Part shown: in pieces, positions 9,305-23,390 of the stretch
Numbering within the stretch: the first letter of the stretch is position 1
Layout: every line of letters starts with the position of its first letter
DNA from: a virus
Direction: 5' to 3' (one strand)
Virus record (IMG/VR): IMGVR_UViG_3300013104_000069
Span: 1-27,009 of that record
DNA length: 27,009 nucleotides
The notes under the pieces: model-generated
Databases searched by the model: none
The model's input: only the letters and a program-made list of their open reading frames with translations
Told to the model about the DNA's origin: nothing
Made by a program: the position numbers and the translations under genes

Positions 9305-9317
9305 GATTATGAGTTGG
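9305..9317 (-). promoter_or_regulatory. CCAACTCATAATC element
   Basis: Variant of the recurrent CCAACCCATATTC element, immediately upstream of the AGGAG of the membrane-protein gene starting at 9290. The same CATAATC form occurs at 13620. Interpreted as a candidate phage promoter. Confidence 0.45.
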
Positions 9318-9326
9318 TGTTGCGGA

Positions 9327-9569
9327 TTACTTCTTGTCGCCCGTGAGCTCCAGCACGAAGTCCTCGACGACCTTGTAGCCGTGCAGCCGGTACTCCTTCT
9401 GCACGCCACAGGGGCAGGTCACCTGCATGAACATGCGACCGTTGAAGCCCTCGTCGATCGTGCCCTTGATCTTCTGGCCCTCGCCCGGGTGGTCGTGGTG
9501 ACGCAGGTGGAACGCGATGATGCGGGGGTTGACGGCGGCCATCGCGATGAAGAAGAGGTTGAGAAGCAT
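9327..9569 (-). CDS. Small protein with N-terminal hydrophobic segment
   Basis: 80 aa. The N-terminus (MLLNLFFIAMAAVNPRIIAF) is hydrophobic and may anchor it, followed by a His-rich turn (RHHDHPG) and TCPCGVQKEYRLHGYKVVED. CPCG is a possible half zinc site. The ATG is preceded by GGGAGATAATC, the same start-site pattern as the genes at 9290 and 12707. Function unknown. Confidence 0.68.
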   Translation of the reverse strand: MLLNLFFIAMAAVNPRIIAFHLRHHDHPGEGQKIKGTIDEGFNGRMFMQVTCPCGVQKEYRLHGYKVVEDFVLELTGDKK

Positions 9570-9580
9570 GATTATCTCCC

Positions 9581-9709
9581 TTAGTGAGGTTGTCTGTCGT
9601 GGGCACGGATCTGTGCAGCCACGATCAAGAAATTATCCAGCATGTTGAACGTGCCAACAGGCTTATGACACCGTTGGCATACGACGGTGTATTTGTTCAG
9701 CGGATCCAC
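9581..9709 (-). CDS. 42-aa CxxC protein
   Basis: Starts at GTG after AAGGCGG: VDPLNKYTVVCQRCHKPVGT, then a hydrophobic helix (MLDNFLIVAAQIRAHD). CQRCHK is a zinc-knuckle half, so dimerisation or partner binding would be needed for a complete site. It overlaps the preceding gene by 13 bases. The longer frame extending to 9910 is shadow. Confidence 0.58.
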   Translation of the reverse strand: MDPLNKYTVVCQRCHKPVGTFNMLDNFLIVAAQIRAHDRQPH

Positions 9710-10056
9710 TCCGCCTTGAAGTCGGGGTGCAGACGATATGCGCCGAGCCAGGACTTGAGCATGTTCGAGGTCGGAGGATCCGTACCGAACCGCTTCTTGT
9801 ACTCCTCGTTCGTCATCCACGCAAACTTCTGAGTGGCGACGTACGAGAAGTTGTTGACGTCGACCTGCTCGAAGTCGAAGTCGGTCTGCTCCGACACAAG
9901 GATCGGCCACTGCGCGTGCAGCCTCAGCGTCTCCCGCATGCTCTGAGCGAGGTTGGCGATCGCCATGAACTCCTCGTGACTGATCTCGAAGCCCTTGTCC
10001 TTGATGTAGTCCTCGACCTCGATGATGCGAGCGTTCAGGAACTCTTCGGGGGTCAT
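9697..10056 (-). CDS. Hypothetical phage protein, 119 aa
   Basis: Starts MTPEEFLNARIIEVEDYIKD after AAGGTG, with an acidic helical first half and an aromatic, mixed second half (NNFSYVATQKFAWMTNEEY). No cysteines, no membrane helix. The ATG overlaps the upstream TGA. Several helices suggest a small soluble protein; no family recognised. Confidence 0.7.
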   Translation of the reverse strand: MTPEEFLNARIIEVEDYIKDKGFEISHEEFMAIANLAQSMRETLRLHAQWPILVSEQTDFDFEQVDVNNFSYVATQKFAWMTNEEYKKRFGTDPPTSNMLKSWLGAYRLHPDFKAEWIR

Positions 10057-10241
10057 GGGTCGATCACCTTGTTGTCGTCCGTGACGCACTTGTGGTAGTG
10101 GATCTTGCCGACTATGCGCGAGTAGTACTCTCCGCCGGCGTCTCGGCAGGCCTGCTGGTCGTGACTCTGAGCAAGCAATACCACCGCCACCAGAGCGACG
10201 GCGAACGCGACGAAGAGGGCGATGCCCGTTCCCTCCTTCAC
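10053..10241 (-). CDS. Small membrane protein, 62 aa
   Basis: Starts at GTG overlapping the upstream TGA (GTGA). VKEGTGIALFVAFAVALVAV and the next few residues form one transmembrane helix, followed by an exposed segment with two cysteines (ACRDAGG, HKCVTDD) that could form a disulphide outside the cell. Possibly another host-envelope modifier; too little to name it. Confidence 0.65.
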   Translation of the reverse strand: MKEGTGIALFVAFAVALVAVVLLAQSHDQQACRDAGGEYYSRIVGKIHYHKCVTDDNKVIDP

Positions 10242-10738
10242 TCGTCCACCTCGACCACGCGGGTGTGGACCAGGTACAGGTGCTTGTCCATCTCGATCGA
10301 GAGGAGCTCCTCCGTGTCCGCGTCGACGAGAGCTTCGCAGTCGGGGCACCGCTTGCCGAAGGGCTTGGCCGCCTGGACCAGCTCGTCGTGAGCCGCCTTC
10401 TCCGCGGCCAGCTCCTTCTTGGTCTTCGGGACGAGGCCGTCGCCGGTGAGCCCGCACTCGTCGCACCAACGGGGCTTGCCGTCACGGTGCTGGACGGGCT
10501 TGTGGTTGTGGTAGTTCAGCGCGAGGTACCGGACCCGGAGGATGGCGCCCTCGCCCTGCATCTCGCGACGGGCCATGAGCATCGCCGTCAGCTCGAGCTC
10601 GGTCTTGCCGGACTCCTGAGCGATCAGGGGGATGTTGTCCTCCGTCACCTCTCGGACGAAGATGTGCGCCACGTTGGGGACGTGGTCCTCGAGCTCCGGG
10701 TCGGCCGGCATGTCGGGAAGCATGGGCTGGTCGTTCAT
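10238..10738 (-). CDS. Zinc-binding protein, 166 aa
   Basis: The N-terminal half is acidic. C92 and C95 (WCDECG) with C131 and C134 (RCPDCEA) make a split zinc ribbon, and the last pair is followed by H153 and H158 (DKHLYLVH), giving a C2H2 alternative. A helical Lys/Ala/Glu-rich linker separates the pairs. The ATG is preceded by AGGAG. Probably nucleic-acid- or protein-binding. It is the head of the coupled run down to 9697. Confidence 0.72.
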   Translation of the reverse strand: MNDQPMLPDMPADPELEDHVPNVAHIFVREVTEDNIPLIAQESGKTELELTAMLMARREMQGEGAILRVRYLALNYHNHKPVQHRDGKPRWCDECGLTGDGLVPKTKKELAAEKAAHDELVQAAKPFGKRCPDCEALVDADTEELLSIEMDKHLYLVHTRVVEVDE

Positions 10739-10744
10739 GGGGGA

Positions 10745-11116
10745 TTAGCTCCTGGGGATATAGCGGACGTGTTCCGCGATGATTGCTTGGATGGTGCCCT
10801 TGCTCACGGCCCGCTGACGGAACGTGACTGTCGGGTCCAGCTTCTGGTCGTAGTTGTCGTACTCCGTCTGGGTGATGTAGATATGCCAGTCGAAGTTGTC
10901 ATGGTTGAGGTACTCCTCGAGAGTGATGATGAACGATATGGCGCCGTCCTCTTCCCTCTCGAAGTGGGAGGCGAGCCCAATCGAGCGACCCGCCCTCCCA
11001 ATATGCGACAGGACTGTGACGTAGTCCTTCGCAACTTCGAGCGATCCATCGAGAATGAAGATCCCGTTGCGGAGATATGAACCTTCTCGACAGACCGTTA
11101 CACGCTTCCGATTCAT
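10745..11116 (-). CDS. Hypothetical phage protein, 123 aa
   Basis: Starts MNRKRVTVCREGSYLRNGIF, joined to the upstream gene through TGATG. Mixed alpha/beta character, with an acidic and aromatic second half (NHDNFDWHIYITQTEYDNYD). No recognisable domain. The longer frame to 11437 is shadow of the neighbours. Confidence 0.7.
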   Translation of the reverse strand: MNRKRVTVCREGSYLRNGIFILDGSLEVAKDYVTVLSHIGRAGRSIGLASHFEREEDGAISFIITLEEYLNHDNFDWHIYITQTEYDNYDQKLDPTVTFRQRAVSKGTIQAIIAEHVRYIPRS

Positions 11117-11340
11117 CAGATCGTGCGGCCCTGTGAGATCTGCTGTGCCTTCTTGGACATCAGGGGAAGGCCGAAGTCGTTGTCGACAATTCCCTGCACG
11201 ACGTCGACCTCCGCCTGCTCCCGCTGAGCCAGCAGACGACGGGACTCGGACTGCTTCCAGTCCTTGATGTCGAGCCGCTCCTGGATGACGTCGATCTCGG
11301 CGACCGTGAACTGCGTGAGGATGCTGTAGTCGATGATCAT
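11116..11340 (-). CDS. Small helical protein, 74 aa
   Basis: Starts MIIDYSILTQFTVAEIDVIQ after AGGACGAGGA; helical and charged (LAQREQAEVDVVQGIVDN), compatible with a short coiled coil. ATGA overlap upstream and TGATG downstream. Function unknown. Confidence 0.7.
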   Translation of the reverse strand: MIIDYSILTQFTVAEIDVIQERLDIKDWKQSESRRLLAQREQAEVDVVQGIVDNDFGLPLMSKKAQQISQGRTI

Positions 11341-11696
11341 TCCTCGTCCTTCTTCTCGGGGCACTTCGGGTCTCGACAGACACGACGCTGTCCGTACACA
11401 TACGGGTCCCAGTCGTGTTTGTGCGGTGGCGGAACATTCGGGTTGTCGATCCGGACCGGAACCTTCTCTCGCATGACGGTGATGTTCTGGTGGATGACCG
11501 CCATCAGGTAGTCCGTGTCCCGCGTGTCGATGAGCCAGTCGAGAGCACCCCACGTGATCGTGAGGCTGTGGATTCGACGGCCCTCAAGGAATACGCGCCG
11601 AGGCAGGATGCAGTTCTTCCTGTCCCAGCCGGCCTCCATGGCTGTGGCCCGCTCCTCCTTGTCCTTCACCAAGATGCAGTGAAACTTCTCGCTCAT
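11337..11696 (-). CDS. Hypothetical protein with C-terminal zinc motif
   Basis: 119 aa. Starts MSEKFHCILVKDKEERATAM after GGAGGA. Mixed fold, then a C-terminal HKHDWD and VCRDPKCPEKKDEE with C107 and C112, which could bind zinc with the preceding histidines. Coupled by ATGA at both ends. Function unknown. Confidence 0.7.
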   Translation of the reverse strand: MSEKFHCILVKDKEERATAMEAGWDRKNCILPRRVFLEGRRIHSLTITWGALDWLIDTRDTDYLMAVIHQNITVMREKVPVRIDNPNVPPPHKHDWDPYVYGQRRVCRDPKCPEKKDEE

Positions 11697-12139
11697 TCCT
11701 CCGCCTTTCCGAAGTTCTTCTCGCGGTCCATGTACACGGCCTCGATGATGTCGTCCGTCCACGGGTGGGTAGAAATGACGTAATCGAGCTTGTTGACCAT
11801 GCGCACGCCGGGGATGGCGTACAGGTTGTTCTTCGGGTCGTCCGGTGGCTCGACGATCGTCCACACGTAATGCGGGTCCATGTTGCGGATCGCCATCCAG
11901 CTGTAGAAGTTCCCGCCGTTGTTGTCGACGTCGAACTCCGTCTCGAACTCCTCCTCTGTGAGCAGGCGTGTCGGCTGCGGACGGTGCTCGATATAGAGCT
12001 TCGCGCCACAACCCTCGACGGTGCAACGGATGATCGGCTTGACGCCACTCACGCCCTTTCGGACCTGGTAGCGCTCGAAGTCCTCGATCCACCGGTGCTC
12101 GTGCTCCGACTTGGTCATGTCGTGGATTGGGGTACCCAT
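11693..12139 (-). CDS. Hypothetical protein with N-terminal zinc motif
   Basis: 148 aa. HEHRWIEDFERYQVRKG and IIRCTVEGCGAKLYIEHRP suggest a small zinc ribbon made of His and Cys near residues 13-52, as in other HxHxW...C...GC phage proteins. The rest is acidic, with many Asp/Trp/Tyr. Start ATG at 12139 has GGAGAG; an internal ATG at 12118 is an alternative. Stop overlaps the next ATG. Confidence 0.7.
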   Translation of the reverse strand: MGTPIHDMTKSEHEHRWIEDFERYQVRKGVSGVKPIIRCTVEGCGAKLYIEHRPQPTRLLTEEEFETEFDVDNNGGNFYSWMAIRNMDPHYVWTIVEPPDDPKNNLYAIPGVRMVNKLDYVISTHPWTDDIIEAVYMDREKNFGKAEE

Positions 12140-12140
12140 C

Positions 12141-12707
12141 TCAGCTCTCCTTCTTGACGGAAACGCCGACGATCTCGACGAGGGAATATGCGTTCTCGTT
12201 CTTGAAGGGGTCGTACAGGTCCCAGCCGCCGCGGAACTCTTCTGGGTCGACCATCTTGTAGAACCTCGAGCCGAGGTGGCGCCAACCGTCATTGGCCCTG
12301 ACGATGAGGCACATGTTGCCCGGGTGTCCGAGCGTTGCCACCGTGCCGACCGGCGCGTTGTTCTGCGTCAGAGTCGGCCGGGGGGTCATCTGCTCGTAGA
12401 TGTTGGTCGCGATGAGCTCCAGCGTCACCGTGCCTTCGTCGTTCCGACGGATGATGAACAGGATCTTCTCGTCTCGATTCCAGCCATAGACCATCCCGCG
12501 CGGAGTCCTGGAGAAGCCGAGCATGTCAGCGACGTCGTTGACCGTGATGAACCGCCCGGCCTTCAGACGGTCGTTGATGTAGTTCTCCTGAGCCCGGAAG
12601 AAGAGCGCCTGGTACTCGGGGTTCGGGTTGAAGTTCGGGTTGTACTTGTCCCAGACGAAACCGAACGTGACGGTGTGGACATCGGGGTCGACCTTTTCGA
12701 ACTGCAT
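12141..12707 (-). CDS. DUF6353-like domain protein
   Basis: 188 aa, soluble. Residues 23-76 (NPNFNPNPEYQALFFRAQEN to MLGFSRTPRGMVYGW) match, position by position, a segment of the membrane protein at 23399-24337 (NPTPEYNVVFLKAQETYWND to NLGFDKTSTGAVCGW). I associate this domain with the DUF6353 family of phage proteins, role unknown. The rest (residues 80-188) is beta-rich and differs from the membrane paralog. Start ATG follows AGAGATAATC. It has no membrane helix, so it may be a soluble counterpart. Confidence 0.68.
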   Translation of the reverse strand: MQFEKVDPDVHTVTFGFVWDKYNPNFNPNPEYQALFFRAQENYINDRLKAGRFITVNDVADMLGFSRTPRGMVYGWNRDEKILFIIRRNDEGTVTLELIATNIYEQMTPRPTLTQNNAPVGTVATLGHPGNMCLIVRANDGWRHLGSRFYKMVDPEEFRGGWDLYDPFKNENAYSLVEIVGVSVKKES

Positions 12708-12709
12708 GA

Positions 12710-13141
12710 TTATCTCTTCTCTTCCAGGGTCATCTGGAGGTCGGTGTTGTGTTGTGCAGGCCAGCGATATGCTGCTCGGAGGCCGTAGTGGTTTTCGACA
12801 AGGTACTCCGTGCGGTAGCCACGCGCAGCTCCTCGCGAGAGGTGGAGGATCGTCTCGAACAGGCGATGACAACCTTTGTTCTTGTAGAGCGTGATCTCGA
12901 TCCGTCGACGTCCCATCTTGCGACGGAGGTCAAACTCGCTACCGCGGATCAAGCGCTCAAACTTCTTGCCGGCACGGAGTGGCATCAGGATATAGGCCTG
13001 TCCCATGTTGTTCTCGCACGAATACGAGGTCTCGATGCCGGCGTCCCGAAGGATGGTCATGATCCTGTGCATGCCCATGTCGACGGTCACAAGCCTTCCG
13101 TCGAGGGTTCGGAAGGGGACCTGATGGTGCTGGGTAACCAT
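12710..13141 (-). CDS. Hypothetical protein with TSYSCE motif
   Basis: 143 aa. MHRIMTILRDAGIETSYSCE followed by YILMPL resembles a widespread set of phage proteins with GI-T-x-SC-(E/Q)G and a following beta strand, often annotated only as conserved. The second half is basic (RRKMGRRRIEI, GCHRLFETI). ATG at 13141 is supported by AAGGAGA; the in-frame ATG at 13207 is upstream shadow. Function unknown. Confidence 0.7.
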   Translation of the reverse strand: MVTQHHQVPFRTLDGRLVTVDMGMHRIMTILRDAGIETSYSCENNMGQAYILMPLRAGKKFERLIRGSEFDLRRKMGRRRIEITLYKNKGCHRLFETILHLSRGAARGYRTEYLVENHYGLRAAYRWPAQHNTDLQMTLEEKR

Positions 13142-13142
13142 G

Positions 13143-13349
13143 TCAGTTCTCCTTCTTGATGCATGCAATCGATGCGGATTTGGGCCAGGGGTAGCGGTAC
13201 GTTTCACCGTTCGTCTTGAGCGTGGCGTAAAGCCAGTACGTCCGCTCGCTGTGCTCTTCGATCCTGACGAAGGTGAAGTAGTAGCTCTTGATGATGACGG
13301 TGTCGCCCGCCTCGAGCTCGCTGAGCAGGACTCGGTTGTGGTAGTCCAT
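13143..13349 (-). CDS. Small beta-rich protein, 68 aa
   Basis: MDYHNRVLLSELEAGDTVII then alternating strands (YFTFVRIEEHSERTYWLYAT), reminiscent of small SH3- or KOW-like barrels. Short overlapping neighbours on both sides. No better assignment. Confidence 0.65.
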   Translation of the reverse strand: MDYHNRVLLSELEAGDTVIIKSYYFTFVRIEEHSERTYWLYATLKTNGETYRYPWPKSASIACIKKEN

Positions 13350-13350
13350 G

Positions 13351-13608
13351 TCAGTGCTTCGGGTGGTGGACGATGATGGTGGTCGCGTTGACGACCTCGA
13401 TGCGACGCCAGTGGATCTTGTTCTCCTTGACCCAGGCGACGATGAGCGGGTCGACTCCGTCGTGCCAGACGGTGTGCTTGACCTTGGAGTTGGAGGGGCG
13501 CTTCCTCTTGCCCGTCTTCCTTGACGAGGTCTGGATGGCGATCATCCTCTCCGAAACCTTGGTGACGGTCTTGGGGTGAAGCGAGACGGTCTTACGAACT
13601 GCAGTCAT
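13351..13608 (-). CDS. Small basic protein, 85 aa
   Basis: Very basic: MTAVRKTVSLHPKTVTKVSE, then SSRKTGKRKRPSNSKVKHTV, then a beta-rich end with a double histidine (IIVHHPKH). The charge suggests nucleic-acid binding. The ATG has a good AGGAG preceded by the CCAACTCATAATC element and, further up, a terminator-like hairpin. First gene of the run 13608-12141. Confidence 0.7.
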   Translation of the reverse strand: MTAVRKTVSLHPKTVTKVSERMIAIQTSSRKTGKRKRPSNSKVKHTVWHDGVDPLIVAWVKENKIHWRRIEVVNATTIIVHHPKH

Positions 13609-13619
13609 TGCTAGCTCCT

Positions 13620-13640
13620 GATTATGAGTTGGGTATTACG
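13620..13640 (-). promoter_or_regulatory. CAACTCATAATC element with GGGTATTAC
   Basis: Minus strand CGTAATACCCAACTCATAATC directly abuts the AGGAG of the basic-protein gene at 13608. It combines the recurrent CATAATC element with a GGGTATTAC half-site of the type found at 4865 and 5026. A terminator-like hairpin lies just upstream at 13661-13678, so a new transcript plausibly begins here. Confidence 0.5.
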
Positions 13641-13678
13641 TCCAAAATTTAGAAGACCTAAAGCCCTTGTGGGGGCTT
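13641..13678 (-). terminator. Hairpin terminator candidate
   Basis: On the minus strand AAGCCC (13678-13673) pairs with GGGCTT (13666-13661) across a 6-base loop, followed by a T/A-rich stretch. It sits just after the stop of the small membrane-protein gene (13692) and before the promoter-like element of the next gene. The stem is only 6 bp, so moderate confidence. Confidence 0.55.
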
Positions 13679-13691
13679 CGGATCTTTCTTG

Positions 13692-13892
13692 TTACTTCCA
13701 GCAGAACATGGGGTCATGGGTGAAGGGCGCGTTGCAGCACGTCTGCACTGGCTTCATCATCTCCTGCAGCTTCTGGGAATCGGCGTTGATCTGCTTCTGC
13801 TTCTTGTTGGCATAGGCGGTCAGGCCGATCATGACGATGCATGCGGCGGAGATGGTGTAGTTGGCGACGGAGGCAAGGGTCTTCGTGTTCAT
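13692..13892 (-). CDS. Single-pass small membrane protein, 66 aa
   Basis: MNTKTLASVANYTISAACIV and following residues form one transmembrane helix (residues 10-28), then a Lys/Gln-rich coiled segment and three cysteines near the end (TCCNAPF, MFCWK). Size and layout could fit a holin-like or envelope protein, but the C-terminal cysteines are unusual for that. It has a strong TAGGAG and its own TATAAT promoter at 13921, with a terminator-like hairpin downstream: it seems to be a single-gene transcription unit, likely made early from host polymerase. Confidence 0.7.
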   Translation of the reverse strand: MNTKTLASVANYTISAACIVMIGLTAYANKKQKQINADSQKLQEMMKPVQTCCNAPFTHDPMFCWK

Positions 13893-13909
13893 GGTTACTC
13901 CTAAATAAT

Positions 13910-13946
13910 GGTGGGGTCTCATTATAGGCCATGAATTTCTTGCGAG
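13910..13946 (-). promoter_or_regulatory. TATAAT promoter, copy 2
   Basis: Minus strand GGCCTATAATGAGACCCCAC with TATAAT at 13926-13921, preceded by a conserved ACTCGCA. A 21-bp block (13910-13930) is repeated exactly at 25724-25744, and the A/T-rich upstream part is nearly the same, including the 21-base distance from ACTCGCA to TATAAT. About 30 bases separate it from the start at 13892. Typical of a host-sigma -10 with an unusual upstream element. Confidence 0.65.
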
Positions 13947-14156
13947 TTACGTGTTGCGCATCTCGTCGATGAGGAAGTACGTCGCGTCGATCGTGCGTCG
14001 AACGAGCCAGTTCTGAGGCTGACGACGCAGACCGTCCTGCAGAACCGTGAGGTAGTCGACGGCGTTCGATCGGGTCAGAGGGATGTCCAGCTTCTTGAAG
14101 TCCATCTTCATGTTGGAGTAGACGCCGGCGGCGAGGTGACGGGTGACGATCTTCAT
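13947..14156 (-). CDS. Small hypothetical protein, 69 aa
   Basis: MKIVTRHLAAGVYSNMKMDF, then a helical basic segment (VLQDGLRRQPQNWLVRRTID) and an acidic end. The ATG at 14156 has GAAGGA and, before it, the CCAACCCATATTC element. A GTG-started extension to 14261 stays open but runs through the promoter-like element and is less likely. Function unknown. Confidence 0.65.
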   Translation of the reverse strand: MKIVTRHLAAGVYSNMKMDFKKLDIPLTRSNAVDYLTVLQDGLRRQPQNWLVRRTIDATYFLIDEMRNT

Positions 14157-14169
14157 GATTCCTTCTTTC

Positions 14170-14183
14170 GAATATGGGTTGGG
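14170..14183 (-). promoter_or_regulatory. CCCAACCCATATTC element
   Basis: Full form of the recurrent element, positioned just before GAAGGA and the ATG at 14156. Candidate phage promoter. Confidence 0.55.
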
Positions 14184-14422
14184 TACTCTCGCGCCGAAGG
14201 CCTTTAGGTAGACCTGCTTAGCCACTGGATTGGTTTCGGGCACCTCCAGCGCGGAGTTCACTTTCGTCTTGCGTAGTATTCAATTTGTACTCAGGCAGTC
14301 GGTACCACGAATACCTTCTGCAGATGGCCTTTCCTTGGGCACCCTCCACAGGCACCGGGCGTGTATCTGACACACCCTGAAGAGGGACCCCAACTGGTGG
14401 TAGGATCCCTCAACAGGACGTG

Positions 14423-14455
14423 TCAGCCGCCCCAGCCCCAGATGCTGTTCCGCAT
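14423..14455 (-). CDS. 10-aa Trp-containing leader-like peptide
   Basis: ATG at 14455, reads MRNSIWGWGG and stops with TGA at 14423. AAGGAGG lies nine bases upstream (14471-14465), one of the best ribosome sites in the region. A strong 9-bp hairpin (14504-14533) precedes it and two hairpins follow. The two Trp codons near the end recall attenuator leader peptides, but no amino-acid gene follows, so this is only an analogy. It could also be chance. Confidence 0.4.
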   Translation of the reverse strand: MRNSIWGWGG

Positions 14456-14503
14456 AATGATGCACCTCCTTCTTCATTCAGAAGCCTTCTCAGGCCTCAC
14501 CGC

Positions 14504-14533
14504 GAGGAGCCGAGCCCTGATACCCGGCTCCTC
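14504..14533. repeat. 9-bp hairpin before the leader peptide
   Basis: GAGGAGCCG at 14504-14512 pairs with CGGCTCCTC at 14525-14533 across a 12-base loop. It is upstream of the peptide start in the minus-strand transcript and not followed by a U-run, so a structural or processing element is more likely than a terminator. Confidence 0.6.
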
Positions 14534-14649
14534 ACAGTCAAGCCTATTCCCTCCCACCATTGCCGCTGTCCCATATCTCAGCGTGACCGTATGTCGCCTG
14601 GGTCGTCACCTCGCGTTCGAGGGCTATTCGCCAGTGGTGTCTGTAACGG

Positions 14650-14660
14650 GAATATGGATC
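14650..14660 (-). promoter_or_regulatory. CCATATTC element at non-coding region start
   Basis: Minus strand GATCCATATTC, overlapping the stop codon of the gene at 14659 and opening the 500-bp gene-free stretch. There is no start codon near it, which argues that the element is transcriptional rather than part of a ribosome site. Confidence 0.5.
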
Positions 14661-15000
14661 AGCCCTGGAGCTTGGCCTTCAGGTCCTGCATGACCTTGTC
14701 GGCGCTGGTGATCTCGAACGTCTGCTTGAGCGCGGTGTCGGTGTAGACCTTGAAGCCGTTCTCGGCCTGCAGCACCCAGTCGCCCACGAAGGCACGACGC
14801 TGACGCTCGTTGGCCGGCCGATGGACATCGACCTCGATGAAGGGGCTCGGCTTCTTGCCCTGGATCTTGGGGGCGGTCTCCTTGAGAAGGCCTTTGCACC
14901 AGGCGGCGACCTCCTCCATGTTCTCCTTCGTCACCCGGATGCCGTCGACGTAGAACGGCTTTCGGACGAAATGGGTTGTTGCCAGTGGCGTCTCGCTCAT
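14659..15000 (-). CDS. Conserved small phage protein, PGDYG-like
   Basis: 113 aa. FVRKPFYVDGIRVTKENMEE, AAWCKG, then RAFVGDWVLQAENGFKVYTD. The pattern of a variable-position start, V/I-T-E-N, W-C-x-G and a GDW(V/I) followed by a Tyr/Asp strand is shared with the protein at 16789 and with many phage proteins annotated with PGDYG-like domains; no biochemical role known. Start ATG has AACAGG and an ATATTC in between. Followed by a gene-free region. Confidence 0.65.
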   Translation of the reverse strand: MSETPLATTHFVRKPFYVDGIRVTKENMEEVAAWCKGLLKETAPKIQGKKPSPFIEVDVHRPANERQRRAFVGDWVLQAENGFKVYTDTALKQTFEITSADKVMQDLKAKLQG

Positions 15001-15057
15001 GTGAATATCCTGTTCGTTCTTGTTGGGTGTTGCAACTATTGAGGGGTCTCGTTAGTG

Positions 15058-15507
15058 CTAGGCGACCTGTCGGCTGCCCTTGTCGTAGGTCTTCGTCACG
15101 CCACGGGGACGGATGACGACCATGCCGGCGTCCTGTGCCCGATGCAGCACGGCTCGGACGGCATTGCGGCTCATGCCGAACGCCATCTCGAGGTCCCTGA
15201 TGCTGAGGCCGCCCTTGGCGTACTCGGACACGATGTTCTCGTCACGCTCACGGTTCTGCTCTCGCACGCGCTCCCAGCGCTCACGAGCCGATGCCGTGAT
15301 GTTGTCGATGTAGTTCTGGTCACGAGGACCGGTCTTCAGCCCCTTGTTCCAGGGGGTCTTGCTCTTCTTCTGCTTCGCGATGATCTGACCGAGAAGCTGG
15401 GGGAAGAGATCTGGCGTGCCCGGCTCGATGCAGACGTGGTAGTTCGGGCGGTTGCACCACTCGTTCTTGCACGGCGTCTTGGGGGCGTTCCAGTCGATGT
15501 TCAGCAT
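15058..15507 (-). CDS. HTH DNA-binding protein with NUMOD3-like segment
   Basis: 149 aa. Cys/His near the N-terminus (C13, C18, H24, C26) may bind zinc. Residues 50-75 (KTPWNKGLKTGPRD onwards) resemble a NUMOD3-type motif from homing endonucleases. Residues 91-128 (NIVSEYAKGGLSIRDLEMAF, GMSRNAVRAVLHRA) form a helix-turn-helix. No HNH or GIY-YIG catalytic core is present, so either a regulator or a degenerate endonuclease accessory protein. Preceded by the CCATATTC element. Confidence 0.68.
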   Translation of the reverse strand: MLNIDWNAPKTPCKNEWCNRPNYHVCIEPGTPDLFPQLLGQIIAKQKKSKTPWNKGLKTGPRDQNYIDNITASARERWERVREQNRERDENIVSEYAKGGLSIRDLEMAFGMSRNAVRAVLHRAQDAGMVVIRPRGVTKTYDKGSRQVA

Positions 15508-15523
15508 GTTGGGGATTCTTTCT

Positions 15524-15537
15524 GAATATGGGTTCGG
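15524..15537 (-). promoter_or_regulatory. CCGAACCCATATTC element
   Basis: Full-length form of the recurrent element, 16 bases before the ATG at 15507 of the HTH gene, with AGAAAG between. It also touches the stop of the upstream gene (15543). Confidence 0.55.
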
Positions 15538-15542
15538 CCGGC

Positions 15543-15995
15543 TCAGATGCCGGTCTGCATGTTGAGGGTCATGACGCAGGAGTAGTGGTGTCGGTGCTGC
15601 TCGGTCGCTCCGCACTTGGAGCAGGGCTTGTGGTGCCGGGTGAAGCGGGTCGGGGCGTTGTTCATGCCATGGCTGCGCTCGGAGAGGAGCGTGTAGGTGC
15701 GACCGCCGTCGGTCGAGAAGGCCTCGCCGTTGCGTCGGTTCTGCCACGTGGTCTCGTCGTGCTGGCACCACTCCTCCGGGTTGTCCGTGAGGGGCGACAG
15801 GTTCTGGAACTCGAGGATGCCGGCGATGACCGCAATCCCGATCGAGACCGATCCCCCGTCGAGCTGCATCTTCTCGAAGGCTCGAATCACGTCGAGGTAC
15901 CCTTCCGTCAGCTCGGGGGTCTCCCCGATGGTCGCGAGCTCACGACGGGCGTGGGCAACGAGCTCGGACTCCTGGGCAATGCTGTTGCTGTTCAT
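15543..15995 (-). CDS. Conserved actinophage-type protein, zinc motif
   Basis: 150 aa. ARRELATIGETPELTEGYLD, a hydrophobic helix around residues 50-62, PLTDNPEEW, then GEAFSTDGGRTYTLL. I recall this order in conserved proteins of actinobacterial phages without known function. The C-terminus has C125, C128, H137 and C140 (PCSKCGATEQHRHHYSC), likely a zinc knuckle. Start has AAAAGGAATC; the CCATATCC element is upstream at 16018. Confidence 0.7.
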   Translation of the reverse strand: MNSNSIAQESELVAHARRELATIGETPELTEGYLDVIRAFEKMQLDGGSVSIGIAVIAGILEFQNLSPLTDNPEEWCQHDETTWQNRRNGEAFSTDGGRTYTLLSERSHGMNNAPTRFTRHHKPCSKCGATEQHRHHYSCVMTLNMQTGI

Positions 15996-16017
15996 GATTC
16001 CTTTTCTTGGACCCTGT

Positions 16018-16028
16018 GGATATGGGAG
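16018..16028 (-). promoter_or_regulatory. CTCCCATATCC element
   Basis: Degenerate form of the recurrent element (TATCC instead of TATTC), upstream of the gene starting at 15995. Confidence 0.4.
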
Positions 16029-16048
16029 AGAGTTGCTGCTAGGGGGAA

Positions 16049-16303: not shown

Positions 16304-16327
16304 TGTCTTCGCCTCCTTCGCCTTTCT

Positions 16328-16585: not shown

Positions 16586-16614
16586 CGAAATATCTCGCCT
16601 TCGCGTAGGGGGGG

Positions 16615-16652
16615 GTGGAGGGGCCGGCCTCGGGTGTAACCGACCCCTCCAC
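16615..16652. repeat. 13-bp hairpin abutting promoter-like element
   Basis: GTGGAGGGGCCGG (16615-16627) is the reverse complement, with one mismatch, of 16640-16652. The recurrent element begins at the very next base (16653). A transcript starting just downstream of the element would begin with this hairpin. No U-run follows on the minus strand, so it is probably not a simple terminator. Confidence 0.6.
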
Positions 16653-16667
16653 GAATATGGGTTACGG
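16653..16667 (-). promoter_or_regulatory. GTAACCCATATTC element
   Basis: Full-length copy of the recurrent element overlapping the end of the zinc-finger gene at 16662 and followed by the hairpin. The next start codon (16585) is almost 70 bases away, so it is not part of a ribosome site. Confidence 0.5.
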
Positions 16668-16811
16668 ACGAACGGGGACTTCGTCGTCCTGGATCTGGAT
16701 CAGAAGATCCGGGTGGTTGTTCTTGATGTGCTCGAGCCACTTGGCCTCGGTCTCGGCCTCACGCTGACAGCGCGGGCAGTACCAGGGGTCATTCGGGTCG
16801 TGCGTCCTCAT
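16662..16811 (-). CDS. C2H2 zinc-finger miniprotein, 49 aa
   Basis: MRTHDPNDPWYCPRCQREAE then WLEHIKNNHPDLL. C12, C15, H28 and H33 fit a classical C-x2-C-x12-H-x4-H finger with a hydrophobic helix, and the tail is acidic. AAGGAGG precedes the ATG. It overlaps the previous gene by 23 bases. A single finger would bind DNA weakly, so protein binding is also possible. Confidence 0.72.
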   Translation of the reverse strand: MRTHDPNDPWYCPRCQREAETEAKWLEHIKNNHPDLLIQIQDDEVPVRP

Positions 16812-17142: not shown

Positions 17143-17144
17143 GC

Positions 17145-17681
17145 TCACTCGTCCCACGGAGCGGGCTCGGCGGCGCCGTCCTCGGCGTTGTGGCCGGCGA
17201 CCGGCACGTCCTGGTACTTCTGCTCGAGGGCGTCGAGCTCCACGACGGCGAACAGCGACTGGACGTAGGCCTTGACGCCGGACCGACCGCTGACGGTGTA
17301 CTCGTAGGGGCGGATGATGATGTCCGCCGACTTGATGTCCGCCCAGTCGAGCATCTCGACCTCCTGCTCACCGAGCGGGGTGCGGTTCATGCCGCGAGCG
17401 GTCTTGGTGATCATGACGACGCGCGGGGGCGTCTTCACCAGCTGGCCGAGCTTGTCGCGGTACTTGACCGAGACGGGGATCCAGTAGTCGCCCTCCCCGC
17501 CGTCGGGGCTGTCCTTGAACTTCTTGACGGGCCATCCGTCCTCGAGCATGGCCTGGGCCAGCTCCACCGGGAGGATGACGCCGGTGTTCCGGTCGCCCTC
17601 GGCGTTGTAGTCGCCGGGCTTGCCCGTGAAGTTGCGCAGGACGAGCTGAGCGTCCTCGATCGTGACGTTGTTGAGTGCCAT
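17145..17681 (-). CDS. ssDNA-binding-like replication protein
   Basis: 178 aa. IEDAQLVLRNFTGKPGDYNA, GVILP, DGWPVKKF, VSVKYRDKLG, PPRVVMIT, then WADIKSADIIIRPYEYTVSG and VKAYVQSLF. I recall this as a phage family often annotated as single-strand DNA-binding and found next to DNA polymerases. The layout (OB-like strands and a DE-rich tail, AEDGAAEPAPWDE) fits an SSB. Directly downstream of a shorter relative and the polymerase. Start follows AAGGAGATTC and the ACATATCC element. Confidence 0.7.
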   Translation of the reverse strand: MALNNVTIEDAQLVLRNFTGKPGDYNAEGDRNTGVILPVELAQAMLEDGWPVKKFKDSPDGGEGDYWIPVSVKYRDKLGQLVKTPPRVVMITKTARGMNRTPLGEQEVEMLDWADIKSADIIIRPYEYTVSGRSGVKAYVQSLFAVVELDALEQKYQDVPVAGHNAEDGAAEPAPWDE

Positions 17682-17697
17682 TCGGGTGAATCTCCTT

Positions 17698-17710
17698 GGA
17701 TATGTGTTGG
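17698..17710 (-). promoter_or_regulatory. CCAACACATATCC element
   Basis: Degenerate but clearly related copy of the recurrent element, abutting AAGGAG of the SSB-like gene at 17681. Confidence 0.5.
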
Positions 17711-18052
17711 TTACAGCTTGGGGGTGATGCTGATGAGGAAGGCAGTCATGCCCTCTCGACCACCGTGAACCCAGTCGCGACCCTCGAGAAACAGCTCCGC
17801 CTTGTTGAAGCCGAGCGAGTCGAGGTGTGACAGATCCACGTCGTACGCAGGGTCGATCTTGACGAGGACCCACCAGGTCTGTGCGGCCTGGTTGTACTTG
17901 ACATTCCAGCCAGCGTCCTTCATGGGCTGGACGTGCTCCGGCGGGATCACGGAAACGAACATGCGCGACCCCGAAGGGAAGTACTGCTGCACGCGGCCCG
18001 TGAAGTTCCGCATGAGGATCAGGGAATCTTCGATGTGGTAAGTGGTGGACAT
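17711..18052 (-). CDS. Short SSB-like paralog
   Basis: 113 aa. HIEDSLILMRNFTGRVQQYF, FVSVIPPEHV, DAGWNVKYN, WWVLVKID, then a divergent end. It keeps the first half of the neighbour at 17145 (IED-x-(L/I)-RNFTG ... V-P ... (D/G)W-VK ... V-VK) but lacks the IIRPYEY block and acidic tail. Perhaps a partner or decoy for the longer protein. Start ATG follows AAGGAAGG and the CATATTTC element. Confidence 0.68.
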   Translation of the reverse strand: MSTTYHIEDSLILMRNFTGRVQQYFPSGSRMFVSVIPPEHVQPMKDAGWNVKYNQAAQTWWVLVKIDPAYDVDLSHLDSLGFNKAELFLEGRDWVHGGREGMTAFLISITPKL

Positions 18053-18065
18053 GACTACCTTCCTT

Positions 18066-18081
18066 GAAATATGAGTGGTTG
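18066..18081 (-). promoter_or_regulatory. CAACCACTCATATTTC element
   Basis: Related copy of the recurrent element (CATATTTC), next to AAGGAAGG of the gene at 18052 and at the stop of the polymerase gene. Confidence 0.45.
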
Positions 18082-18082
18082 A

Positions 18083-21000
18083 TCAGGCAGCGACGCTGCC
18101 CTCTCCGAGATGCTCGATGAAGTCCTCGAAATTGCCGAACTTCTCGATCGTCTTGATCGCTTCGTACTGCAGGCCCTCGAAGTAGGACATGTCGAGATCG
18201 ACGTCCCTTCCGCGAGCCTTCGCCACGTCCGCCTCGAGCCAGAAGAAGCCCTTGGTGCCCGTGACGGCGTACTTCTTCTCGTCCTTGATCCGGAACAGCA
18301 GACCGCCGCCGGACTCAGGCGTGACGGGAACGAACGTCCCGATCTTGCCGACGAACTGGAGCTTCTTGTCGCCCTCCGACAGGAACATCGGCGTGCTGAC
18401 GGACTCGAAGTCGAGGTACATCGTTCCCTGCTGGACCTGCTTCGGCTCGACGTAGTCGTTCCAGTCCAGCTTCTCCTGAGAGAACAGGGTCTTGAAGACG
18501 TACGGGTGCTGGAACTGTGCGCCCGTTGCCGTCCACTTGCCGATGAGCTCCTCGTCCTCAGCCCACCCGTACTTCGCGATATACACCGCGTCGTTGACCA
18601 GAGCCATCCGGTCGTAGGTGGCCTCGTGCTCGAACGTGTAGCCGTACTTGGCTCCGAAGTCCATGACCTCCTGGATGATCTCCGGCGTGGCGTCCGGGAT
18701 CTTGATGGAGTCCGTCTTGATGTGCGCAGCGATGAAGCCACGGCTCTCGACGAAGTCCCTCAGGTCCAGCATGAACAGCGCTCCCCGCTTGGCGACGATG
18801 TTGTCGACGTTGCGCGGGTCCCGGAAGGGGTTGTCGAACTTCGCCGACGTGAGACCGTAGACGATGTTGATCACGATCTTCAGGGCGTACGAGAGCCTCT
18901 TGGCGTCACCCGGGTCTCCGAGATATGGCTCGAGCTTCCCGTCCAGCATCTGCTTGGCCTCGTCGTACTTCTTGTGCTTGATCAGCAGACGAGCGTCCAA
19001 CAGGTCCTTGAACTTCGGGGTGAAGATATCCCCGAACGCGTTCAGCTCGATCAGGGACGTCGGGTGCATGGACGCCACGTCGAGCAGCGCCACGTTCCGG
19101 TAGATGCCGGGCTTGGCACGTACCAGACCACCCTCGCCGACGAACTCGCCCTTGTACGTGCTCTTCTCGCCCACCTTGGCGTAGGTGTCGAACTTGTAGC
19201 CCGGGAAGTCCCGGCTCAGGTCCGTGTAGACGAACTTGGACTGCGGGTTCTTGTCGTTCCCGAAAATGATCCGGGCGGTGTGCTTCTGCGTCGTGTCGTT
19301 GACCGACAGTCCACTCAGCTCCGCGAGGATCTGACGAGCCACGAGGTCCGCCTTCCGGTCCTGCAGCGTGGCGTCGGTTCCCTCGACGTCGTTGCAGCAG
19401 TAGTCGACGACCGTGTCCACGAGCTCCGCCGGCACCGGCTGGTCCCATGGGATCTCCATCTCGACCTTGTGGATGCCGAGATCGATCATGAACTTCTTCA
19501 GGCCCTGCTTCACCGAGCTGAAGTCGTAGATATCGGCGTACGAGAGGTTGTAGGCCTCCGGGAAGAACGCGCCGACACTGCCGTTGATGATCGCCTGCGA
19601 ACGCTTGTACAGGGCCATGTTGTCGTAGCCGAGGAAGCGTGCGTAGATGATGTGGTTGTCGTACTTGCGGTTGTTGAACCCCACGAGCTTCATCTTCATG
19701 AGCTCTTCGACCTGCTGCGGGGTCGGGTTGATCATCCGGACGATGGTTTCCTTGGGCGCACCCTCGTACTTCCAGCAGATGACGAAGAGGTTCGGGTAAA
19801 CCTCGACGTCGAAGACGACCAGACGGTCATCCTTCGGCTTGACCAGAGGGCTCTCCCGCTCCTGCAGGTCCTCGATCGTCTCCGAGCCCGTCCATCGCAT
19901 CGACTGCACGATCTTCAGGGCCTGAAGCGGCTGGTTGCTCGACGAGTTGGCGAACGCGAGAACCCTGGGCCTCATGTCCGTCACGTCGAACGCCATCCCG
20001 GACTCGTATGCCTCGTCGAGGATGTGCTTGATGAAGTCGATCGAGGGCTTGGTGCCTGCGTGGAACTCCTTGTTCAAGTTCCGTTGGATCAGGTCACGCA
20101 GCCCTTTCTCGCTCTTCAGGATGTTGTCGGAAAGCACTTTCTTCTCCTTAACGGGCAACTGCCCTGGATTTAGTGTCGCGACCTCGAGATTGTTGCACTT
20201 CGAGAGTCGTCGGCGGAGCGATGCGTCACCGAGAAGGGTCTTGACTTCCACGCCATCGGAATATACCGAGGCGAGTTCGGTGACGTCACCCGTGTAGTTG
20301 TAGTGCAGGTGGATGCCGTTCCCACCCTGACTCAATTCCGCGTAGGTCTTGGGCCAAGAACTGGCGGCTTCCATGTTGAGCAGGAGCGACTTCTCGCCCG
20401 ACTCGTCCTTGAGGTCGAAGTCGATGATGACGTGCTCGTCCGGGATCTTCACGTAATGGAGTTCACGTGTGTCGATCTCCGAGAGCGTGGTCTTGACCTC
20501 TGCCCACCGCTTGGACGGGATGACGTTGCCGGTCTCCTCGACGACTCGTCCATACTGAGCTGGCTGCTCGGCATAAATAAGATCGAACGAAGAGACCTCC
20601 TCGTCCAGACTCAACCCGAAGACGGGCTCCTTGTCGGGCTCCTGCTTGAGGACGACCTTGAACTTGTCGGCGTTGAAGCCCTTGAAGAAGCTCCGCACGG
20701 GGTCTCCGTCCACGGTCGTCCGATCTAGGAACTCGTCGAAGTAGTTCTTGAACTCTTCGCGGAACTTGTACGCCGGCATCACTCGGTCGATGCTTGATTC
20801 CGAGCAGTACTCCTTGTAAAGGGAATATCCCTGCTTCAGGGAAGCGCCATCCTGACTCTTGAAGATGTCGAAGTGCGCCTCGATGAAGTTGAAGAAGATG
20901 TCCGTCTGGAACATCATCTCCAAGGGCTTGTAGCCGTTGTACGCGTTCTTCCCACCCATGTTGCGATATACCTGCAGGCAGTGGTGAGCGATGGCACCCA

Positions 21001-21967
21001 GTTCGAACTGGACCTTCGCGAGAAGAGCGTGGTAGTGGTTCGGCGGGATGGTCGCGCCCGTGGGGTGGACGTCGATTACTCGCCTGATCATTCCGGACTT
21101 GGAGTCCGAGATCTTCACTGGGAGGTTCGTCCCCATGAACAGGAAGGCATTCACCCGAGCCGTGTAGCTGGGCTTGTACTTCTCGTTCATCGTCATGTCC
21201 TCGTGGGAAATGATCGAGTTGAACTTGGAGTTGTCCTCCATCTTGGACAGGTCGCCGTCCTGCTGGATAGCGACCAACGGGTTATCCTTGAAAACCTCGG
21301 TGGCGAACGCAGCGCTGGTGGACGTCAGCGCCTTTGCCTCGAACGTCGTGGTGTAGCCGACGAACAGGTCATTGATGATGTTCATGATGGTGGACTTGCC
21401 CGTACCCGCCGCACCGTAGAACACCATGAACTTCTGGATCTTCTTCGCTTCGCCTGCGACCACCGCTCCAATGGCCCACTCGATCTTCGCCTTCTCCTCG
21501 GGGGAGTACAGCACGTCGGTGAGCTCGTCCCAAGCGCTGTGATCGCCCGGTTCGAGAGAATATGGCAGCCGTCGGCTAACGTAGTCCGACTTCTTTACCT
21601 CTGTGTTGGCGAAGGTGAGGTTCTCATCCAACGGGTGGCTGTTGTCGCTGATGTTGTTCAGGAACTTGCGGAACTGACTCCAGCCATTGCTTCCGAAGGA
21701 ACGGAGCGTCTTGACCTTGTACTCGATCCCGTCCTTCTCGCTGCGCATCTTCGCGAAGTCGTAGAGCTCTTCGTCGACCAGCCGTTGGACGTCGTACTCG
21801 TCCGTGGACCACAGACCTACCGCCTCGTCCCAGATCGCATAGAACGCGCGTCCGCGAACCATGAGATCCTTCGACCTCCCGACCGTGAAGTCAGGAAATA
21901 TCTCCGGCGGTTCAGCGCCCTTCTTCGTCTCCTTGCCTTCGCGAATCCCGATTGTGAAGAAATCCAT
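18083..21967 (-). CDS. SF3 helicase-AEP primase-family B polymerase fusion
   Basis: 1294 aa with three activities in one chain (numbers include the alternative TTG one codon upstream). Residues 150-310, SF3/D5-like helicase: Walker A GAAGTGKST (186-194), acidic IQQDGD (235-240), GTNLP sensor (280-285) and arginines 296-297. Residues 480-605, archaeo-eukaryotic primase: IIDFDL (D517, D519), GGNGIHLHY (H554/H556), DGVEVK (572-576). Residues 715-1290, family B polymerase with proofreading: ExoI VFDVEVY (D721, E723), ExoII FNNRKYD, ExoIII YCCND (Y857, D861), motif A DVASMHP (D964), motif B KIVINIVYG (K1031, Y1038), motif C IKTDS (D1087). Motif C has Lys where the first Asp of DTDS is usual; the catalytic second Asp remains. 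Start ATG has AGGAGG. The replisome is probably organised around this protein. Confidence 0.85.
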   Translation of the reverse strand: MDFFTIGIREGKETKKGAEPPEIFPDFTVGRSKDLMVRGRAFYAIWDEAVGLWSTDEYDVQRLVDEELYDFAKMRSEKDGIEYKVKTLRSFGSNGWSQFRKFLNNISDNSHPLDENLTFANTEVKKSDYVSRRLPYSLEPGDHSAWDELTDVLYSPEEKAKIEWAIGAVVAGEAKKIQKFMVFYGAAGTGKSTIMNIINDLFVGYTTTFEAKALTSTSAAFATEVFKDNPLVAIQQDGDLSKMEDNSKFNSIISHEDMTMNEKYKPSYTARVNAFLFMGTNLPVKISDSKSGMIRRVIDVHPTGATIPPNHYHALLAKVQFELGAIAHHCLQVYRNMGGKNAYNGYKPLEMMFQTDIFFNFIEAHFDIFKSQDGASLKQGYSLYKEYCSESSIDRVMPAYKFREEFKNYFDEFLDRTTVDGDPVRSFFKGFNADKFKVVLKQEPDKEPVFGLSLDEEVSSFDLIYAEQPAQYGRVVEETGNVIPSKRWAEVKTTLSEIDTRELHYVKIPDEHVIIDFDLKDESGEKSLLLNMEAASSWPKTYAELSQGGNGIHLHYNYTGDVTELASVYSDGVEVKTLLGDASLRRRLSKCNNLEVATLNPGQLPVKEKKVLSDNILKSEKGLRDLIQRNLNKEFHAGTKPSIDFIKHILDEAYESGMAFDVTDMRPRVLAFANSSSNQPLQALKIVQSMRWTGSETIEDLQERESPLVKPKDDRLVVFDVEVYPNLFVICWKYEGAPKETIVRMINPTPQQVEELMKMKLVGFNNRKYDNHIIYARFLGYDNMALYKRSQAIINGSVGAFFPEAYNLSYADIYDFSSVKQGLKKFMIDLGIHKVEMEIPWDQPVPAELVDTVVDYCCNDVEGTDATLQDRKADLVARQILAELSGLSVNDTTQKHTARIIFGNDKNPQSKFVYTDLSRDFPGYKFDTYAKVGEKSTYKGEFVGEGGLVRAKPGIYRNVALLDVASMHPTSLIELNAFGDIFTPKFKDLLDARLLIKHKKYDEAKQMLDGKLEPYLGDPGDAKRLSYALKIVINIVYGLTSAKFDNPFRDPRNVDNIVAKRGALFMLDLRDFVESRGFIAAHIKTDSIKIPDATPEIIQEVMDFGAKYGYTFEHEATYDRMALVNDAVYIAKYGWAEDEELIGKWTATGAQFQHPYVFKTLFSQEKLDWNDYVEPKQVQQGTMYLDFESVSTPMFLSEGDKKLQFVGKIGTFVPVTPESGGGLLFRIKDEKKYAVTGTKGFFWLEADVAKARGRDVDLDMSYFEGLQYEAIKTIEKFGNFEDFIEHLGEGSVAA

Positions 21968-21983
21968 CAACCCTCCTTTCCTA

Positions 21984-22514
21984 TTATCTGTCGTTCTCCA
22001 GAAGATATGCGTTCATCTGAGACCAGATCTCGAACTTCCGCTGATCTCCTCGTGGATTCTTGAGAGGGAACAAGCCCCCGTCTCCGTTGGGCTCGTAGGT
22101 CCTCCAAATAACCGTGTCGAGGATCTCGTCAACGTCAGCCGGGTCGATCTGCATCCGATCATTAAAGACGTGCAGGCCCAAGTTCTGCATGAGGTGCCAG
22201 AACCACTCCGCGGGGGTGCCGTCGTCGAGAAACGACACCCGCCGCGAAAGTGCAAGCAGCATCTCGAAAAATGAACAGCCAAGGCTCATCCACCTCGGGT
22301 CCACCTCAAGACGCAGGCTGTTGACGAATTCGTCCCTCAGGGCTCTACCGTCAGCCACCCGGTTGTCGTCGTTGGCGACTTGCCAGATGAAGTGCTTCTG
22401 GTAGAGCAACCTGAGGATCCTCCGATGTGTCTTGGAGGTTTCACGAACTTGTACCTGCCCGACTTGACCGCACAGCCAGTTGAAGTAGGCCTCGTCAATC
22501 GGGACGGCTTCCAT
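21984..22514 (-). CDS. Conserved phage replication-associated protein
   Basis: 176 aa, helical, Trp-rich. EAYFNWLCGQVGQV, LRLLYQKHFIWQVANDDNR, FFEMLLALSRRVSF, WHLMQNLGLHVF, then LFPLKNPRGDQRKFEIWSQM. I recall conserved proteins with the same order in phages of both Firmicutes and actinobacteria, function unknown. It lies directly upstream of the polymerase fusion, so a role in replication or its coordination is inferred. Start overlaps the stop of the previous gene (TGATG); the ribosome site is weak. Confidence 0.7.
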   Translation of the reverse strand: MEAVPIDEAYFNWLCGQVGQVQVRETSKTHRRILRLLYQKHFIWQVANDDNRVADGRALRDEFVNSLRLEVDPRWMSLGCSFFEMLLALSRRVSFLDDGTPAEWFWHLMQNLGLHVFNDRMQIDPADVDEILDTVIWRTYEPNGDGGLFPLKNPRGDQRKFEIWSQMNAYLLENDR

Positions 22515-23365
22515 CAGTCGTCCGTGAGCCTTCGACCACGTCGCGGCATGCGCTCCACGATCTCGTCGTCATCGAACCCGAGGACCTGCACGGCGTACCG
22601 TCCCTCGTTGCGAGCCACCTCGAAGGCGAGGCCGGCCTTCTTGTTGAAGATGTAGACCAGGTGCTCCTCGCCCGACCCGTGACCGAATCGCTTGAGGTTG
22701 GCCTTGCCGACCGTGCCGTCGATGTCCCCGATGATCCCGCCGGAACCGTCCTCGAGGACGTCGTCGCCCTCGTAGTAGGTCACCTGCATCGTCTCGAGGT
22801 CACCCTCGTTCTCGAAGAACTCGTCCTTGGTCACGATGAACGGGTTGGCGTCCGTGCGTCGGGCCAGCTCCGTCTCGTAGTCCCAGCCCTCGTACTGCGG
22901 CGGGGAGACGACCTCGTCCTCGAACAGGTTGCGCGTCTCCGCCGGCTCCGGCTCTGCCGGGACCTCTTCGACCTCAGCCTTCCGAGCGCTGACGATCACG
23001 CCGTCCTCGACGACGGTGAGGTGAACGTCCTGGCCCTGGTACTTGAGCATGGATGCCTGAGCGTCCGGGTAGTCGTCCGGGATCAGCTTGTTGACGGCCA
23101 CGGAAGGCGTGTCCATGCCCTCCTTGCTGCGGTGGGCGTAGAGGATCCGTGCCTGCTGGATCTCCTCCTCCGCCATGGCCGCGTACTTCGGCTCGAGGTA
23201 CTTCTTGGCGAGGCGGTAGCCGATCAGGGCGCCGGTGCTGATCCCGATGAGGGCCGCTCCGACGATGATCAGCGGGTCGTGCTTGATGACCTCGACGGTC
23301 TCGACGACGGTGGCAACCGCAGGCTCCACGGCGTCGACGATCTGCTCAGCGATCTGCTCGCTCAT
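22514..23365 (-). CDS. Acidic single-pass membrane phage protein
   Basis: 283 aa. N-terminal acidic segment, one transmembrane helix (residues 31-50, PLIIVGAALIGISTGALIGY), then a large acidic domain ending with YYEGDDVLEDGSGGIIGDID, RFGHGSGEEHLVYIFN and RYAVQVLGFDDDEIVE. I recall the same EGDDVL...VG...FG...V(Y/F)...FE(V/I) order in conserved phage proteins adjacent to DUF6353 genes. Membrane location with most of the chain inside is likely. Preceded by the full CCATATTC element and AAGGAG. Confidence 0.72.
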   Translation of the reverse strand: MSEQIAEQIVDAVEPAVATVVETVEVIKHDPLIIVGAALIGISTGALIGYRLAKKYLEPKYAAMAEEEIQQARILYAHRSKEGMDTPSVAVNKLIPDDYPDAQASMLKYQGQDVHLTVVEDGVIVSARKAEVEEVPAEPEPAETRNLFEDEVVSPPQYEGWDYETELARRTDANPFIVTKDEFFENEGDLETMQVTYYEGDDVLEDGSGGIIGDIDGTVGKANLKRFGHGSGEEHLVYIFNKKAGLAFEVARNEGRYAVQVLGFDDDEIVERMPRRGRRLTDD

Positions 23366-23375
23366 GTTTCTCCTT

Positions 23376-23390
23376 GAATATGGGTTGAGG
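23376..23390 (-). promoter_or_regulatory. CTCAACCCATATTC element
   Basis: Near-consensus copy, directly joined to AAGGAG of the gene at 23365. Confidence 0.55.

Follow-up and report, generated by a model that had tools for sequence, protein, structure and literature searches.

The stretch analysed here (the window) is a virus record of 27,009 bases in which all genes named below lie on the minus strand. Its sole recognisable polymerase, encoded at 578-3352, is one chain of 924 residues that matches phrog_4291 over its full length and carries a DxDxD catalytic motif whose residues D524, D526 and D528 are invariant in 56 sequences. Homologues occur in 250 phage records (Arthrobacter, Gordonia, Streptomyces, Lactococcus, Curtobacterium, Rhodococcus, Microbacterium and others), and further ones in hundreds of IMG/VR contigs. 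Two recurrent short elements stand among the genes (Table 1), the gene set of the window having been hand-picked from its open reading frames and that of related contigs called by a simple ORF picker.

A recurrent element ahead of ribosome sites

All eleven positions given by the original prediction hold some form of the first element, but the 13-mer by which it was described is exact at three of them, carries one mismatch at two, two at two and three at two more, and at 16018 and 3941 just a CATATYC core is retained, the rest having diverged. Since the divergent copies share mainly this core, the full 13-mer is over-specified, and the conserved part is CATA[T/A][T/C]C together with a C/A-rich left side. 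The predicted minus-strand orientation is borne out by a motif search of the window: at up to two mismatches all seven matches lie on the gene strand, and at up to three 17 of 22 do so, against 11.25 matches expected in all and with none of 100 shuffles reaching as high. A 13-bp matrix, derived from the sites of the original prediction itself, finds 18 matches on the minus strand vs one on the plus strand, where some 4-5 are expected per strand.

Table 1. Features of the window discussed in the text (SD, Shine-Dalgarno-like sequence).
Feature	Sequence	Position	Strand	Observations
Single-chain RNA polymerase, putative two-barrel type (phrog_4291)		578..3352	-	DFDGD at residues 524-528; helix-turn-helix segments at about 94-135 and 891-923
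Core copy inside coding sequence	CATATTC	3941..3953	-	One of the copies scattered in coding DNA; the start 25 nt downstream is doubtful
Early element		4224..4250	-	3 mismatches, 0 expected; upstream of exonuclease-polymerase gene block; similar one in L005
Recurrent element	CCAACTCATAATC	9305..9317	-	Exact; precedes ribosome site of gene 8988-9290; SD and start 14 nt downstream; similar element before gene of L005
Further core copy	TATATCC	10756..10762	-	Before SD and start
Recurrent element	CCAACTCATAATC	13620..13632	-	Exact; before gene 13351-13608, downstream of possible hairpin CCCCCACAAGGGCTTT; identical copy before ortholog in L016
Early element	TCGCAAGAAATTCATGGCCTATAATGA	13919..13945	-	2 mismatches, 0 expected; before small gene starting at about 13892
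Recurrent element	CCAACCCATATTC	14170..14182	-	Exact; gene start at about 14156 downstream
Element-like	CTGATCCATATTC	14650..14662	-	3 mismatches; overlaps stop codon, start far off
Recurrent element	CGAACCCATATTC	15524..15536	-	1 mismatch; L016 ortholog has CATAATC in front
Recurrent element, left half divergent	CTCTCCCATATCC	16018..16030	-	Core and SD, start at +22
15-pair hairpin		16615..16652	-	One base after 16653 element; -33.9 kcal/mol, z -4.1; without T run
Recurrent element	GTAACCCATATTC	16653..16665	-	2 mismatches; follows GTAA; hairpin, no start, next
Recurrent element	CCAACACATATCC	17698..17710	-	2 mismatches; immediately 3' of stop codon; SD, start at +16
Recurrent element	ACCACTCATATTTC	18066..18079	-	3 mismatches; SD, start at +14; L016 ortholog with CCAACTCATAATC
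Recurrent element	TCAACCCATATTC	23376..23388	-	1 mismatch; before gene 22514-23365; SD, start at +10
Early element, second promoter-like element	TCGCAGAAATTACACGGCCTATAATGA	25733..25759	-	0 mismatches, 0 expected (shuffles)

The placement of most copies just ahead of a ribosome site also stands. After ten copies of [CGT]ATA[AT][CT][CT] in the window a Shine-Dalgarno-like sequence comes next, with a start codon 10-25 nt downstream, and the reversed, reverse-complemented and complemented motifs yield none each. The pattern used for ribosome sites is permissive, and with the intragenic copy at 3941 set aside, nine copies remain at credible gene starts. The element before ribosome sites, on the sense strand only, is thus real in the window. 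Two copies had been singled out as following a stop codon far from any start, and no start is indeed near either, the one at 16653 coming after GTAA, but that at 14650 overlaps its stop codon. The segment 16615-16665 joins an element and a hairpin in the absence of a start, possibly as an attenuator or small RNA.

The proposal that the element differs from a sigma-70 signal is supported. Read as a -10 box it was rejected, the window holding two TATAAT/TTGACA-like pairs 16-18 nt apart vs 3.5 expected, and the sigma-70 form ATAAT is not enriched in the coding DNA of most members of the family. A search within 60 nt of the coding copies described below found no second box, distal or otherwise.

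The element in relatives and within coding sequence

Relatives of two degrees were examined: G001 (L004, with L012-L014), whose polymerase is 96% identical to that of the window, and G002 (L005, with L015-L016), at 78%. The element is conserved in the latter, where in L005 and L016 CCAACTCATAATC lies ahead of the ribosome sites of several genes, some of them orthologues (judged on their first codons) of window genes that have CATATTC or CATAATC. Further afield, the gaps of two phages with this single-chain RNA polymerase gene, Tanis of Gordonia and Pepy6 of Rhodococcus, hold many copies that conform to CAAC-(N)Y-ATATTY or nearly so. A stop codon often ends 2-9 nt before the copy, and in two cases in Tanis a T-tailed hairpin immediately precedes it. 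The distance from element to start in these other phages spreads widely, from 0 to more than 100 nt.

A scan of all 5-mers, which did not presuppose the motif, compared coding sequence with synonymous codon shuffles preserving proteins and codon usage; the phages scanned were picked for their polymerase, and several of the other tests were devised after the data had been seen. In most isolates tested ATATT ranks first or nearly so among coding 5-mers, with enrichment of up to 14-fold, and it heads the list in DrGrey, Rosa, Makai, Tanis, Pepy6, Pippin15, Count, G001 and G005. Observed and expected counts are 73 and 5.1 in DrGrey, 137 and 21 in Pepy6, 103 and 23 in Tanis, 150 and 40 in Count, and 50 and 5 in Pippin15; the right half of phage Qui is likewise enriched, and the window has 14-15 coding copies vs about 1.7 expected, tied with CATAT for first place. 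The best short form is B-ATATT-Y (B, not A), ATATC being also favoured by some phages. This enrichment belongs to part of the family: it is absent from Tribby, from Lactococcus phage P1046 and from many metagenomic relatives, and in L005 the gap element is kept with no clear coding enrichment.

The opposite orientation is avoided in several members. Raw counts of ATATT to AATAT on the gene strand are 125:1 in Tanis, 163:5 in Pepy6, 95:1 in DrGrey, 172:10 in Count and 24:1 in the window, and against synonymous shuffles AATAT is depleted in Tanis (1 vs 26 expected), Pepy6 (4 vs 20) and Count (4 vs 26); Makai, Pippin15, Tribby and the right arm of Qui show no such depletion. Four control phages (Patience, R4, GTE7 and Min1) show neither ATATT enrichment nor antisense avoidance, R4 and Min1 carrying little weight, given how few sites are expected in them.

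The original prediction had set most copies just before genes, but the element is not confined to gene starts, the core being evenly spread through coding sequence: enrichment is 4-6-fold at all distances to the next start, even beyond 1.6 kb, and includes the DNA polymerase and tape-measure genes, which means that the coding copies do not serve as promoters of particular genes. In Pepy6, Tanis and Qui the structural arm is not or weakly enriched and the remainder 2-10-fold. Within the left (structural) arm of Pepy6 sense copies are neutral (10 vs 9 expected) and antisense copies avoided (0 vs about 10), a combination predicted by a start signal and not by a primase or Chi-like site.

Other words also stood out in coding sequence. 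P1046 (L029), which has a distant relative of the polymerase, is enriched for another word, TTGACC (23 vs 5.4 expected from synonymous shuffles); in Tanis (L023) the palindrome GGATCC is enriched (50 vs 11.6), palindromes being depleted in other phages of the set; and several metagenomic relatives (L037, L061, L063, L082) are enriched for CTCGAG, which is absent from the coding sequence of Rosa and Makai (L020, L021).

The TCGC-N15-TATARTGA element

The second element, TCGC-N15-TATARTGA, has a rigid length of 27 bp and was found in 74 copies, all sense and none antisense. Of the 12 polymerase-bearing phages or contigs in the initial scan 10 contain it, none of the four controls does, and the window has three copies. 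A finer form, TCGCA-N14-TATARTGA with a conserved TTACACG-like spacer, describes copies in L019, L021, L023, L024, L026 and others. It lies for the most part ahead of the small early genes, and the block of exonuclease and polymerase genes has it upstream as well; it is likely to be an early promoter of this group of phages. It occurs as well in polymerase-bearing phages without ATATT enrichment, is absent from Pippin15 and P1046, both of which bear the polymerase, and occurs rarely in metagenomic loci of 10 kb adjoining the polymerase.

The two elements tend to exclude each other. Among gaps of at least 30 nt, BATATTY is present in 8 of 47 with the early element vs 56 of 126 without it (odds ratio 0.26, p = 8e-4), and the other 70 of these 126 have neither. 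Two promoter classes would be the simplest reading of this exclusion. Window positions 13560-13950 hold both elements, an early element and its small gene being followed by the possible hairpin and then by the recurrent element and the next gene.

A proposed reading of the element as a transcription start signal

Taken together, these patterns suggest that the element, with its core of ATATT plus a pyrimidine, probably tells the phages' own expression machinery where to begin transcription. The proposal that ATATTY acts as a start-proximal signal for non-early genes has about an even chance of being correct. On that proposal the gap element would be a longer version of BATATTY, a short transcription signal specific to one strand; the window would also use ATATC and ATAAT. 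In short co-directional gaps it would serve as a start-proximal promoter, RNA beginning in or just after ATATTY, and the resulting short leader would keep the ribosome site. The genes served would mainly be those lacking the early promoter, and coding copies would act, or be tolerated, as weak sense initiation sites, antisense copies being purged by selection because they would fire against genes. Its reader would most likely be phage-specific, with the 578-3352 polymerase as the leading candidate and not the sole one.

The identity of the reader is where the strongest rival lies, and this rival is compatible with ATATTY as a promoter. It is a serious possibility, somewhat short of an even one, that the 578-3352 polymerase reads the early element, ATATTY then being left to the host polymerase with a phage factor or to some other role. 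The abundance and fixed length of the early element, its occurrence in polymerase-bearing genomes and not in controls, and its position upstream of the polymerase block would all suit such an assignment, and its conserved spacer and short distance are ill-suited to sigma-70. The record of Lactococcus phage 1706 notes that gp75, a relative of the polymerase, is a structural protein, as would befit an injected polymerase starting early genes. ATATT enrichment, in turn, is scattered on the polymerase tree, requiring 11 changes vs 14 with shuffled labels, a weak co-inheritance assessed on metagenomic loci most of which span only about 10 kb upstream of the polymerase. However, the early element holds a perfect TATAAT, so that the host polymerase could read it, and some carriers of the polymerase lack it or, among metagenomic relatives, rarely have it. 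Given this scatter, and with no clear coding enrichment in the close relative L005, nothing specific ties ATATTY to the polymerase, and the suggested link of the element to this particular enzyme is a candidate assignment; the early element, for its part, also occurs in polymerase-bearing phages that lack ATATT enrichment.

A signal at the RNA level is an unlikely alternative in which AUAUUY in the leader would aid ribosome loading, mRNA processing or protection, like the start-associated sequences (SAS) of cluster K mycobacteriophages. AUAUU may fit an RNase E-type cleavage consensus, and the element is confined to the sense strand and lies near ribosome sites in the window, L005 and L016, but in other phages its distance to the start is highly variable and copies lie deep in coding DNA. 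An RNA signal does not require antisense avoidance, and element sites were no more unpaired than shuffled ones when RNA accessibility was assessed.

Still smaller is the probability of a strand-oriented DNA signal outside transcription, for example a primase initiation site or a counterpart of Chi recognised by the phage exonuclease. The even spread of copies through coding DNA would suit it, and the annotated polymerase-bearing relatives also have their own DNA polymerase, most with an exonuclease gene adjoining the RNA polymerase. All genomes examined (annotated relatives including Qui, over the parts covered) are unidirectional, so that gene strand and genome strand are inseparable. Against such a site stand the concentration of the extended form in gaps, the weak or absent enrichment in the structural arms of Pepy6, Tanis and Qui, the antisense avoidance and the exclusion with the early element. 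An artefact of composition or codon usage is very improbable: these phages are strand-skewed in composition, but synonymous shuffles, reversed and complemented controls and the negative control phages speak against it, and shuffles and controls rule out chance or composition for the isolates listed.

Some known systems bear comparison in part. Late promoters of phiKZ consist of a very short TATG motif overlapping the transcription start with no upstream boxes, a motif too frequent to account alone for specificity (PMC7598289). The parallel drawn with phiKZ in the original prediction is apt as regards mode of action alone, a short motif that in the case of ATATTY would likewise lie at the start; it breaks down in the core (ATATTY, not TATG), in the polymerase (one 924-residue chain, not a multisubunit, non-virion enzyme) and in the hosts, and the available part of PMC7598289 describes no coding-wide sense enrichment. 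Similar in architecture may be YonO of SPbeta, a single-chain two-barrel polymerase (PMC5467207), of which the 578-3352 protein would be a distant relative at best. It matches phrog_8308, the family of YonO, weakly over the catalytic barrel (E 2e-4), and a whole-protein profile comparison with YonO by hhalign is not significant (probability 4.7%); a PDB sequence search returned helix-turn-helix-like and other weak matches and no polymerase, and the structure model is poor (mean pLDDT 57.5). In Bacillus phage phi3T (L116 10904-13811) the yonO homologue is annotated as two pieces about 0.4 kb apart. Thermus phage P23-45 likewise has single-chain two-barrel polymerases and two promoter classes, one AT-rich, but its motifs lie upstream of mapped starts and one of its two polymerases is fused to the tape measure protein (PMC10770324).

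The SAS of cluster K mycobacteriophages (PMC12699233) and cluster EF Microbacterium phages (PMC7302621) are, in the available parts of these sources, likewise short, asymmetric and placed just upstream of many starts, mostly of non-structural genes. They differ in their sequence, GGGATAGGAGCCC, in including the ribosome site, in having few coding copies and in lacking an ATATT core, and the window element does not conform to the cluster K consensus at starts. The available part of PMC7302621 describes Microbacterium repeats for clusters EC, EF, EG and EI and mentions none for EL, the cluster of Count. A literature search found neither the ATATTY element nor the early element described.

The two elements offer concrete candidate promoter sequences in isolated phages whose hosts are grown in the laboratory, a matter of some consequence given that, according to PMC5467207, it was still to be determined which promoter YonO recognises. 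A strand signal written into coding sequence through the choice of synonymous codons would be unusual for a promoter. It is conceivable, if doubtful, that a single-chain two-barrel phage RNA polymerase uses BATATTY as its initiation code, with coding sites set by synonymous choice and antisense sites purged, the strongest cases having roughly 100-220 sense BATATTY sites per genome. If that were true, these phages would initiate transcription across whole gene blocks instead of at gene starts alone.
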